64,000 nucleotides of DNA, taken from contig JAOKFJ010000003.1 of the NCBI GenBank assembly GCA_028247015.1, forward strand, positions 1 to 64,000, in the 5' to 3' direction. Positions 50,114-62,701 of the stretch are shown here, in pieces. The stretch is from Methylophilaceae bacterium. Lineage in GTDB: Bacteria > Pseudomonadota > Gammaproteobacteria > Burkholderiales > Methylophilaceae. The first letter of the stretch is position 1; each line of letters opens with the position of its first letter. The notes beneath the pieces were generated by a model. That model had not been told where the DNA came from. It did not search any database and was given only the letters and a program-made list of their open reading frames with translations. Both the position numbers and the translations under genes were made by a program.

Positions 50114-50536
50114 ATGGAACCTATCAAAAAGTTATTTCAAAGCAAATTTTTTTTAGAAATAAACAAAAGAAGAGAACATCTTGAATTACTTCAAAAAGAA
50201 ATGAGTGTATCTATTCCAGAGGAGCTAGTTTCATTAGTTCGCATTAAAAATCAGATAGGGAAAACTCTTTTTGTAGAAGTTAAATCTAATGTTGTAGCTC
50301 ATAAGCTAAAGCTTTATGAAAACAAAATTCTTGATTCAATTAATCAAAAAATAGGGCAAAGTAAATTACTTGATAAAATTAAGGTAAAAATTGTTATTCA
50401 GAACAAAAAAACTGATAAAGAACTAGGAGCTAAGTCAAGATACCCAATAAAAAAAATTAAAGATTTATTCAATTCAATTAATGATTCCCCTCTTAAAACG
50501 GCCTTAAAAAAAATAATTAAGTCTAGAAATGATTGA
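50114..50536 (+). CDS. DciA-like DUF721 protein
   Basis: 140 residues with a DUF721-type core (RIKNQIGKTLFVEVKSNVVAHKLKLYENKILDSIN) and a basic C-terminal extension. DUF721 proteins include DciA, the DnaB helicase loader of bacteria lacking DnaC. The position divergent from the M23/secA pair fits the usual betaproteobacterial order. It overlaps the TauE-type gene by eight bases. Assignment rests on context and the core pattern. Confidence 0.65.
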   Translation: MEPIKKLFQSKFFLEINKRREHLELLQKEMSVSIPEELVSLVRIKNQIGKTLFVEVKSNVVAHKLKLYENKILDSINQKIGQSKLLDKIKVKIVIQNKKTDKELGAKSRYPIKKIKDLFNSINDSPLKTALKKIIKSRND

Positions 50537-51329
50537 ATTTTTTATTCTAACGGTATCAGGTATTTTTATTGGGTCACTTATTGGGATGTTTGGGATTGGT
50601 GGTGGGTTATTTATTGTGCCAGTCGTTACCTATGTCCTAATAGGATTTCATAATTATTCCTTTAATGACGCTCTAATTATTGGAATCGTAAGCTCTTTAG
50701 CCTCAATAATTCTCAGTGGCTTTATTGCTACAATTTCTCATCATATAAATAAAAATATTGACTGGCATATTGTCCGAAAATTTATTTTTGGCGTTGTTAT
50801 AGGGTCAACATTAATAGGATTTTATCTTCCCTATATTTCAATAAACTTTATTCGTTACACTTTTATTTTTTATACTTTTTTTGCTGCATATAAAATTTTA
50901 TTTCCACGAATAGTATTCAAAAATAGATTACCTATGCTTTTTGTGCATAGTAATTTACTTGGACTATGCTTTGCTTCACTCTCTGGGTTAATCGGCATCG
51001 GAGGAGGAAGTTTATTTGTTCCTTACCTAACCTCAAAGGGTATTGCTATTAAACTGTCTATTGGTATTGCAAGCTGCCTAGGTCTGTTCATAGGGTTATG
51101 TTCATCGATTACAATACTTATGTCTTGGGGGCCTATATTATTTAACAATCAAGCTCACATGCTAGGACCTATTTATATACCAGCGATTATATTTCTGACA
51201 ATTCCAAGTTTAATTTTTGTTAAATTTTCTGCTGACTGGCTCCAGAAGATCTCTGATAAAAATATAAGAAGAGGTTTTGCATGCCTTTTAATCTTTATAG
51301 GTTTTTTGATGCTACTAAAAAACCAATAA
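50529..51329 (+). CDS. TauE/SafE-family membrane permease
   Basis: 266 residues with about eight membrane segments. The two glycine-rich repeats of the family are clear: GMFGIGGGLFIVPV near the start and GLIGIGGGSLFVPYL in the middle. Family members export sulfite, sulfoacetate or other organic anions. In a C1- or sulfur-compound user a sulfonate or sulfite role is plausible, but the substrate is unknown. Confidence 0.85.
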   Translation: MIEFFILTVSGIFIGSLIGMFGIGGGLFIVPVVTYVLIGFHNYSFNDALIIGIVSSLASIILSGFIATISHHINKNIDWHIVRKFIFGVVIGSTLIGFYLPYISINFIRYTFIFYTFFAAYKILFPRIVFKNRLPMLFVHSNLLGLCFASLSGLIGIGGGSLFVPYLTSKGIAIKLSIGIASCLGLFIGLCSSITILMSWGPILFNNQAHMLGPIYIPAIIFLTIPSLIFVKFSADWLQKISDKNIRRGFACLLIFIGFLMLLKNQ

Positions 51330-60226: not shown

Positions 60227-60243
60227 AATTATTTAAAATAATT
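60227..60243. promoter_or_regulatory. Perfect 17-base palindrome, candidate ArgA-HTH operator
   Basis: AATTATTT-A-AAATAATT reads the same on both strands. It lies just after the predicted transcription start and eight bases before the ATG of the HTH-ArgA gene, ideal for repression by a dimeric XRE protein. Its pure AT make-up means chance cannot be excluded. Confidence 0.45.
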
Positions 60244-60250
60244 GCTAAAT

Positions 60251-61795
60251 ATGCAAAATAAAATATCAAAAACTATAAAATTTTTGCGTAAAGAACAAAA
60301 ATTAACTCTAGTTAAGTTAGCCCAAAAAGTGGGAATAAATACCAGTAGCCTATCTCGCATTGAGAGGGGTGAAATTAATCTATCTGTCGACCTCCTCAAA
60401 AAAATAGCTCAAATACTTAATGTATCCCCACATATATTTTTTGATGCCACCCCCTTTTCCCAGAGCCTAAATGACTCAAGAAATTCATTTGTTGAACACT
60501 TCAGATTATCTGCGAAATTTATTTATCAATTTAATAAAAAAATATTTGTAATTGCCTTTGGTGGGGAAGTTCTTAAAGACGAACAATTAAAGCAAATCAG
60601 TCATGACATTAATTTACTTCATTCGCTCAACATCAAACTTGTGTTGATTCATGGCATTCGACCCTACATAGATAATAAATTAATTTCCACCAAAAATTCA
60701 ACCCAACTAGTTAGAAATCAACGTGTTACTGATAAAAAAGTGTTAGAACATATTATTGAAGTTAATGGTCGAATTCATACAGAAATTGAAGCCACCCTTT
60801 CGTCGAGTATGTCAGACTCACCAATGGCAGGTAGTGATATAAAAGTATCAAGCGGTAACTTTATAACTGCTAAACCTATTGGTGTTATTGATGGTGTTGA
60901 TATGCAATTTACAGGGCAAATCAGGAAAGTCGATAATAGTGCAATTTTAGATAAACTTTCGCATAACGAAATAGTACTAATTTCTCCACTAGGCTTTTCA
61001 CCAGTTGGTGAAATATTCAATCTATCCTATGAACAAACTGCTGCCTATATTGCCGGAGCAATTAAGGCAGATAAGCTAATCTACTACGTTGACTCTGATG
61101 GAGTGCTCAATAAACGAGGAGAGTTAATCCCTGAAATGACAACTAAAAAGGCTGAAAATCTAATTCGAAATATTAAAAAAAACTCCTCACCAGAAAATGC
61201 AGCACACATCTCCTATAAAGATTTAAACATCCTTAAAAGTAGCTTGTCGGCTATTAAACAAAATGTTGAAAAAGTACATCTAATCAATAGAAATACTAAT
61301 GGTTCACTAATTGAAGAGCTTTATACTGACAAGGGATCTGGTACAATTTTAACCGAATATGCATTAGAAAAAATAAGGCCAGCATCCATCAAAGATATAA
61401 AAGCAATACATCAACTTATTGAGCCACTGGGGAAGAATGGAGCGTTACTATCAAGAGCAAATGAAAAGATTGAACAAGATTTAGATAATTTCATTGTTAT
61501 TGAACATAATCATAATTTAATTGGCTGCGTCGCTCTCTATCCATATAAAAATATGACAGAAATTGCTTGCTTTGTAATTCACCCTAATTATCAAAAACAA
61601 GGGTTCGGAATGAAATTACTAAATTATTGTGAGAAAAAGATACAATCAGAATATGCTTTTATTCTTACAACACAATCCGAGCATTGGTTTATTGAAAAAG
61701 GTTTTTCAGAGGCTCCTACAGATTCAATGCCCTCTAAAAGAAGAAAAATTTACCAGATTGAACGAAACTCCAAATTTTTTACAAAAAAGCTATAA
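60251..61795 (+). CDS. argA: N-acetylglutamate synthase fused to an N-terminal XRE DNA-binding domain
   Basis: 514 residues from the ATG at 60251; a TTG at 60242 adds three. Standard ArgA is about 440. Residues ~5-62 form a complete Cro/C1-type HTH (KFLRKEQKLTLVKLAQKVG, SSLSRIERGEINLS, LLKKIAQILNVSPHIFFD). Residues ~84-355 are the amino-acid-kinase-like arginine-sensing domain (FVIAFGGEVL, LLHSLNIKLVLIHG, YYVDSDGVL). Residues ~375-505 are a GNAT acetyltransferase (FVIHPNYQKQGFGMKLLN). It makes N-acetylglutamate from glutamate and acetyl-CoA, the first step to arginine. The HTH is not part of known ArgA. argB follows 33 bases later. I infer an arginine-responsive autoregulator. Confidence 0.9.
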   Translation: MQNKISKTIKFLRKEQKLTLVKLAQKVGINTSSLSRIERGEINLSVDLLKKIAQILNVSPHIFFDATPFSQSLNDSRNSFVEHFRLSAKFIYQFNKKIFVIAFGGEVLKDEQLKQISHDINLLHSLNIKLVLIHGIRPYIDNKLISTKNSTQLVRNQRVTDKKVLEHIIEVNGRIHTEIEATLSSSMSDSPMAGSDIKVSSGNFITAKPIGVIDGVDMQFTGQIRKVDNSAILDKLSHNEIVLISPLGFSPVGEIFNLSYEQTAAYIAGAIKADKLIYYVDSDGVLNKRGELIPEMTTKKAENLIRNIKKNSSPENAAHISYKDLNILKSSLSAIKQNVEKVHLINRNTNGSLIEELYTDKGSGTILTEYALEKIRPASIKDIKAIHQLIEPLGKNGALLSRANEKIEQDLDNFIVIEHNHNLIGCVALYPYKNMTEIACFVIHPNYQKQGFGMKLLNYCEKKIQSEYAFILTTQSEHWFIEKGFSEAPTDSMPSKRRKIYQIERNSKFFTKKL

Positions 61796-61828
61796 AATAT
61801 TGGAAATAATTATGATGTGGTCTACAAA

Positions 61829-62701
61829 ATGACACCAAATGAAAAAGCAAAAATTTTAAGTGAAGCACTCCCTTATATAAAAAAATTTTCCGGCAAAACT
61901 ATTGTCATTAAATATGGTGGAAATGCCATGATAGATGAGAATCTAAAACACTCATTTGCTAAGGACATTGTATTACTTAAGCTAGTTGGCATGAATCCAG
62001 TAATTGTTCACGGCGGAGGCCCTCAAATAGATGAAAGTCTGGATAAGATAGGTAAGAAAGGAGAATTTTATAATGGGATGAGAATAACGGACGAAGAAAC
62101 AATGTCCGTAGTCCATGACGTCTTAAGATCAATCAGCAAAGAAATTATAAATTTAATAAAAACTATTGGTAGTAAGGCAAATAGTCCTTCTCAAGAGGAG
62201 GCATTAAGATTCATAAAAGCAAAAAAATTAATAGTAGGTAACAAAAATAAACACGGTAAACAAATAGACCTTGGCCACGTTGGTGAGATTGAAAGTATTG
62301 AGCCATCGTTCATGAAAGATTGTATTGATCATGGCATTACCCCTGTAATAGCGCCAATTGGTTTTGGGGAAGATAATAAAATGTATAATATTAATGCAGA
62401 TTTAGTTGCTGGGAAGCTTGCACAAGTAATTAATGCTGAAAAATTAGTGCTGATGACAAATACTAAAGGTGTATTAGATAAAGATAAAAATCTTATAACC
62501 AGATTAATTCCAAAAGAAATCGAAAGTCTTATAAAAACAGAAGTATTATCAGGTGGGATGTTACCTAAAATTCAAGCTGCCCTCATAGCTGCAGAGAATA
62601 ACGTTAATAGTGTTCATATAATCGATGGTAGGGTTGAGCATGCATTGTTGCTTGAAATTTTAACCGACCAAGGCGTGGGTACGCTAATAAAAGCAAATTA
62701 A
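61829..62701 (+). CDS. argB: Acetylglutamate kinase
   Basis: 290 residues from ATG 61829 (a GTG at 61817 would add four residues). Phosphorylates N-acetylglutamate, the second arginine step. [28 protein letters not shown] and the C-terminal [13 protein letters not shown] are present. The N-terminal helix [17 protein letters not shown] resembles the one linking hexamers in arginine-inhibited enzymes. It follows the argA fusion in one operon. Confidence 0.96.

Follow-up and report, generated by a model that had tools for sequence, protein, structure and literature searches.

An N-acetylglutamate synthase fused to a Cro/C1-type DNA-binding domain in the Methylophilaceae, a probable trigger enzyme that may repress its own gene

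Why does the first enzyme of arginine synthesis carry a DNA-binding domain? The gene at positions 60251 to 61795 (plus strand) of the window, the whole 64,000-nucleotide stretch that we analyzed, encodes an N-acetylglutamate synthase (NAGS, ArgA) preceded by a helix-turn-helix (HTH) domain of the XRE type. An earlier note on this DNA had proposed that the protein senses arginine and binds DNA, so that feedback inhibition and repression would reside in one polypeptide. We suggest, with a probability of about three in four, that the fusion is a trigger enzyme that represses the gene encoding it, as well as argB in genomes where both are on one transcript, with arginine as the likeliest effector.

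The gene is a single open frame with an ATG start, encoding 514 amino acids followed by a stop. The Cro/C1-type HTH occupies residues 9 to 61 (60275 to 60433, plus strand; Pfam HTH_3, 55.6 bits against a cut-off of 23). An AlphaFold2 model, computed from an input alignment of nine sequences (mean pLDDT 76, pTM 0.67), shows a five-helix domain with helices at residues 2 to 15, 20 to 27, 31 to 38, 46 to 55, and 60 to 63. The helix at residues 31 to 38 (60341 to 60364, plus strand) is the predicted recognition helix, a role that we assume by analogy with the 434 repressor. A flexible linker (residues 65 to 75; 60443 to 60475, plus strand; pLDDT below 50) leads to the N-terminal helix of the synthase (residues 76 to 94 in the model; 60476 to 60532, plus strand). 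The amino-acid-kinase-like (AAK) arginine-binding domain follows at residues 97 to 346 (60539 to 61288, plus strand; Pfam AA_kinase, 98.1 bits), and the N-acetyltransferase (GNAT) domain spans residues 372 to 514 (61364 to 61792, plus strand; Pfam Acetyltransf_7 at 412 to 486, 42 bits). Two NCBIfam models cover the enzyme part: PRK05279 matches residues 76 to 514 (518 bits; cut-off, 344) and TIGR01890 matches residues 80 to 514 (458 bits; cut-off, 202.85). The best solved relative is the NAGS of N. gonorrhoeae (PDB 2r8v and 3d2p; whole-length match, 261 bits), which is likewise the top fold match of the AlphaFold2 model. With its AAK and GNAT domains and both NCBIfam cut-offs exceeded, the fusion protein is, by profile match, a classical (bacteria-like) NAGS. 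Downstream, 21 bases 3' of argA, lies argB, encoding acetylglutamate kinase (61817 to 62701, plus strand; TIGR00761, 215.7 bits, cut-off 151.3), and the two genes are probably co-transcribed. The presence of this separate argB speaks against a bifunctional, vertebrate-like NAGS/NAGK.

The enzyme part retains its ligand-binding residues. The roles of these residues in the N. gonorrhoeae enzyme are described in the available text of PMC4490483. By alignment, the arginine residues K201 and E270 of that enzyme correspond to K275 and E356 of the fusion, and the N-acetylglutamate residues R416, R425, S427, and S392 correspond to R497, R505, S507, and T473. K275, E356, G362, G364, T365, R505, and T473 are invariant in all 47 fused sequences; S507 is conserved in 45 of them, and position 497 is R in 20 and K in 27. 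The arginine-site motif E-(L/I)-(F/M)-(T/S)-X-X-G-X-G-T (PMC4490483, in part) is matched by E356-L-Y-T-D-K-G-S-G-T (E356 to T365; 61316 to 61345, plus strand) save for the aromatic residue, Y in place of F or M. The claim that the arginine-binding and catalytic signatures are kept thus holds across the 47 sequences. Because the arginine and N-acetylglutamate residues are intact, arginine feedback inhibition of the fusion's NAGS would be expected.

Is the fusion real, and how far does it extend? In a survey of 61 genomes, 37 of them Methylophilaceae, the HTH was present in all 30 full-length family matches, whose alignments begin at query residue 1 to 9; the remaining seven family genomes comprise three without a match and four with broken or partial matches. 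Elsewhere in the order, the 24 genomes sampled from other families all match from residue 66 to 80 onward and lack the HTH. ArgA was matched in 177 of 187 Methylophilaceae genomes, including every good-quality genome (119 of 119) and all 24 genera. Among the matches listed, nine from the family begin at residue 64 to 78, and all nine loci encode the HTH, joined through a longer linker. An HTH profile built on the 47 fused sequences detected the domain at each of 40 additional fused loci and at 0 of 43 loci upstream of unfused argA. In an order-wide sample of 399 genomes, all 13 family matches among those listed are fused, and the others begin at residue 56 at least. A query with the N-terminal alignment (E 1e-15) found no fusion outside the Methylophilaceae among 398 genomes of the phylum; the two family members in that sample were the only ones in which both the HTH and the synthase were matched.

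Since the fusion recurs in family genomes, on many different contigs, the possibility that two genes were merged in assembly or annotation is excluded, its chance being negligible. The earlier note had described an XRE HTH joined in frame to ArgA, and this is confirmed by the single frame, by Pfam and NCBIfam scores above their cut-offs, and by its family-wide occurrence. The cross-genome survey of the domain fusion bears the claim out as well (30/30 full-length family matches against 0/24 relatives), and neither of the two findings named as contrary evidence, separate HTH and argA genes in close relatives or a sequencing merge, was encountered.

Three side observations concern the distribution. 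In another order of the class, an XRE protein of 232 aa that stands alone (G920:C5:474868-475080) has an HTH closely similar to that of ArgA (E 5.5e-19), which may hint at where the domain came from. No ArgA match (E 1e-40) was found in 26 of the 399 order genomes, including the listed members of families f41 and f40; such genomes may rely on OAT alone or on a different synthase. In one genome that is 47% complete, argA is disrupted by several stops and frame changes (G029:C1:537973-540252).

The HTH has been maintained. The recognition helix is its most conserved stretch; among the 47 fused sequences, L34 and E38 occur in 47, S35 in 46, I37 in 45, N33 in 44, and R36 in 40 (K in the other 7). 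Taken over its full length, the HTH varies more than the enzyme does, with a mean column entropy of 1.65 versus 1.23 and 1.39. By comparison of 16 sequence pairs, the HTH is under purifying selection: its omega ranges from 0 to 0.39, and that of the linker, which is 6 to 43 residues long over 47 relatives, reaches about 2.

At the argA promoter or start of the fused genomes lies a 17-bp palindrome, TTTGY-N7-RCAAA, usually in two copies. An unconstrained EM motif search drifted to GC-rich coding sequence, and therefore the palindrome seed was chosen by eye from the upstream regions, using the two best sites per sequence. A palindromic 17-mer position weight matrix (PWM), with the tested genus held out, was applied to 83 fused loci from 22 genera and to 17 unfused controls. 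The start anchor failed in the other 4 of 87 fused loci (L055, L073, L085, and L086) and 6 of 23 controls; the HTH profile nonetheless recognizes the domain in all 40 loci of the batch to which these four belong. The scanned region was first -85 to 0, then extended to +25 after start-codon sites had been noticed, and later to +200. The sequences in these tests are kin, and the counts are not independent. Between -85 and 0, at most 5 of 100 dinucleotide shuffles matched the two-site score in 73 of 83 loci, and the intersite distance was 29 to 31 bp in 52 of 83. With the region extended to +25, 81 of 83 loci had a pair score that no more than 10 of 200 shuffles reached (L054 and L077 fell short), and in 76 loci no more than 2 did. 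Judged by the best single site in this region, 78 of the 83 fused loci outscored 95% of their shuffles, but none of the 17 unfused controls did; for the nearest controls, the score was reached in 11 and 14 of 200 shuffles.

The distance between the two sites is stepped. In the 65 loci with both sites scoring at least 6, the spacings fall into classes of 29 to 31, 41 to 43, 50 to 52, and 62 bp (40, 7, 14, and 4 loci, respectively), the upstream partner in the 62-bp class being weak. These classes step by about one helical turn, with few independent events behind them, the pattern that would follow if both sites were held on one face of the DNA by one oligomer or by adjacent dimers.

The pair of sites marks argA genome-wide. 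An operator-pair model was built from 31 sequences, none of the window's genus (1 of 32, L080, was omitted for its poor second site), and scanned against 42 whole genomes. The top match was the argA promoter in 16 of 16 training genomes and in 17 of 18 other fused genomes, some of which share a genus with training genomes. Thirteen of these held-out genomes matched at an E value of at most 0.003 and four (G073, G198, G200, and G203) at 0.03 to 0.35; G032 gave no match. In eight unfused genomes, the best E value was 0.6 to 3.9 or there was no match, and the matches listed lay away from argA. The strongest secondary match (G034:C111, E 1.7e-4) is inside a coding frame, and two others adjoin genes without relation to arginine. 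The single consensus TTTGC-N7-GCAAA occurs 5 to 31 times per genome; it is therefore not specific, and further targets are possible. All seven R36K sequences have TTTGT- or ATTGT-type sites. Because some R36 sequences have them too, we set covariation of helix and operator aside as evidence. The conserved palindromes lend support to the proposed DNA binding by the fusion, at least for its own gene.

Might the HTH be an inert or structural appendage, serving oligomerization, with another factor binding the palindromes? We consider this very improbable. The recognition helix is conserved and the domain appears to be under purifying selection, the operators occur at fused and not at unfused argA, and all 11 genomes of the window's genus (g1) have no other full HTH_3 domain. 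In this count, which covers HTH_3 domains and includes the window's own incomplete genome, the ArgA HTH is the sole match above the cut-off that spans at least 45 of 55 positions; three of the 11 genomes have an extra, shorter match barely above the cut-off. Genus g43 and G125 have additional XRE proteins, free-standing in g43, so this argument by elimination is valid for g1 and not there.

For the site scan of the window, the PWM was trained on loci from other genera. Operator 1, ATTGCTAAATATGCAAA (60241 to 60257), overlaps the argA start codon; it is the top site of the 64 kb, with a score of 15.6. In the shuffling test at this locus, none of 200 randomized sequences did as well. A site lies over the start codon, at the same position, in 13 of 24 g1 loci, and these proteins therefore start with Met-Gln (ATGCAA). 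Candidate operator 2, TTTGCGTAAAGAACAAA (60283 to 60299), lies 42 bp downstream of operator 1, within the HTH coding region, and has a counterpart in the relatives L002 and L003. It ranks third in the window (14.1); about 0.9 sites of such a score are expected by chance per 64 kb, so it is of interest for its location alone. The second-ranked site, at 50933 (14.8), is in the coding frame 50529 to 51329. In the window's clade, the upstream partner site is absent (score, 1.9) and the second site is intragenic. An in-frame TTG at 60242, nine bases 5' of the ATG at 60251, is an alternative start that would add three residues. A start there would fall within operator 1, and the sequence alone decides for neither codon.

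The site positions also bear on the direction of control. If the protein were an activator, an upstream site near -60 would recruit polymerase, and the upstream site is, by eye, close to the expected position of the -35 element. However, the second site lies 3' of the presumed -10 element, over the start codon (as in those 13 g1 loci) or within the gene, an arrangement typical of repression; activation is therefore quite improbable.

Genus g42 offers a further arrangement. A near-perfect site is present at +23 in all five members first seen, and in a larger set of 21 loci, 15 carry an intragenic site scoring at least 17.6. Two upstream sites scoring at least 6 occur in 4 of the 15 loci with the intragenic site versus 5 of the 6 without it, all 21 loci being compared. 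This pattern of replacement suggests that the intragenic site takes the place of the upstream sites. The codons show a matching constraint. Of the 21 loci, 19 were anchored and the 15 that were gap-free were used for codon analysis. All 15 loci share the same codons 9 (TTG), 11 (AAA), 12 (TCG), and 13 (CAA). A further 44 degenerate codons, codon 10 among them, also encode the same amino acid in every locus, and of these just codon 19 is identical throughout (hypergeometric p 1.2e-4, with relatedness ignored). Codon 10 holds the one variable third position within the site, in its unspecified center. In such an intragenic operator, part of the HTH coding sequence would itself be the binding site.

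Does the protein control more than its own gene? A scan of the DNA 5' of argG, argB, and argJ, covering 16 fused genomes, gave 1 of 48 regions with a score above 14. argJ is present in 16 of 16 genomes tested. By match coordinates, argB lies at most 200 bp 3' of argA in 6 of 16. Since one of 48 regions has a site and argB is near argA in these six genomes, the target appears to be argA, or argA-argB, and not an arginine regulon. The proposed repression therefore stands in part: self-repression is apparent from the operators at argA, and control of an arginine regulon is not. Among these regions, the one good operator-like site is AATGTAAAATACGCAAA, upstream of argB in G077 (L177), which scores 14.2; the next best site scores 10.7.

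The earlier note had also expected ArgR, the classical arginine repressor, to be absent. The N-domain of ArgR (PF01316) was found in 0 of 61 genomes, in a search whose positive controls were matched in 9 of 14 cases and in which the window's own genome (G000) is 62% complete; the fusion protein itself has no Arg_repressor Pfam match. The absence stands but is not distinctive, because the 61 genomes include one each from 24 other families in which ArgA is unfused and ArgR is likewise not found. ArgR loss as the cause of the fusion is weakened by the same observation.

How might the protein work? Sequence comparison gives it two marks of a trigger enzyme, an apparently intact catalytic domain joined to a DNA-binding domain and a putative operator at the target promoter; the third, metabolite-dependent control of transcription, is a prediction. 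The C-terminal part would be a working, arginine-inhibited classical NAGS. The N-terminal XRE domain would bind the TTTGY-N7-RCAAA operators at its own promoter or start and repress argA, along with argB wherever both genes share a transcript. Where two operators stand about three, four, or five helical turns apart, a single synthase oligomer could grip both through its HTH dimers. Binding of arginine to the kinase-like domain would then reduce both the activity of the enzyme and its synthesis. We infer physical binding, repression, and bridging by an oligomer. For the effector, arginine is the likeliest candidate, at about even odds.

When arginine binds to the N. gonorrhoeae enzyme, the N-terminal helix shifts and the hexamer changes shape (PMC4490483, in part). 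In the fusion, the HTH sits just before this helix, and arginine could therefore set the geometry of an HTH pair. The linker is disordered and variable in length (6 to 43 residues), which disfavors rigid coupling and makes avidity or oligomer state the likelier route. The same linker features fit an autorepressor without an effector, in which enzyme concentration alone would set the argA level and arginine would affect catalysis only. Operators found at argA only, among the arginine genes scanned, also fit such concentration feedback. Nevertheless, we find it rather unlikely, since in the model the HTH is joined beside the helix that arginine moves and the dimer or hexamer state of such enzymes is ligand-responsive (PMC4490483, in part, for the helix movement and the ligand response).

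Glutamate, acetyl-CoA, or N-acetylglutamate, and not arginine, could instead move the protein on and off DNA, as in a PutA-like switch. PutA is on DNA without its substrate, with putA/putP as its single target (PMC8249747, in part), and the GNAT residues of the fusion are intact. However, the HTH is attached at the arginine-binding end and not at the catalytic end, and this switch is improbable. Returning to arginine as the effector, we put forward tentatively, as something a little short of an even chance, a fuller scheme: arginine closes the active sites of the NAGS oligomer, and the same state bridges two in-phase argA operators and stops its own synthesis; some lineages use an operator in their own HTH codons, and the protein stands in for the absent ArgR.

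Related proteins are known in kind. The E. coli trigger enzymes PutA, NadR, and BirA likewise combine a metabolic enzyme with a DNA-binding domain. The DNA-binding domain of PutA is a ribbon-helix-helix, and that of NadR is an HTH. None of the three is a NAGS, and PutA is catabolic. PutA has its own gene as a single target, as the fusion appears to have, whereas NadR has several (PMC8249747, in part). SinR and the other Cro/C1 (XRE) repressors share the HTH family, but in the fusion the effector or oligomer domain is a biosynthetic enzyme. ArgR would also couple the arginine level to argA transcription, but as a separate protein of a different fold. N. gonorrhoeae NAGS shares the residues for arginine and N-acetylglutamate (with R or K at position 497 of the fusions) but lacks an HTH. 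ArgH-NAGS of Moritella and NAGS-ArgC of Haliangium are NAGS fusions too, with an arginine enzyme as the partner (PMC4490483, in part). In the available text of that review of the NAGS family, "DNA" occurs 0 times. In the open-access literature that we searched, we found no publication on an HTH-NAGS fusion and no NAGS-based trigger enzyme.

If our reading is true, the first enzyme of arginine synthesis joins the short list of trigger enzymes, and end-product inhibition and repression are united in one polypeptide. The fusion is a testable case for an allosteric oligomer that gates DNA binding. In this way, streamlined methylotrophs with almost no XRE regulators would control arginine synthesis, their order having yielded no ArgR in the genomes searched.
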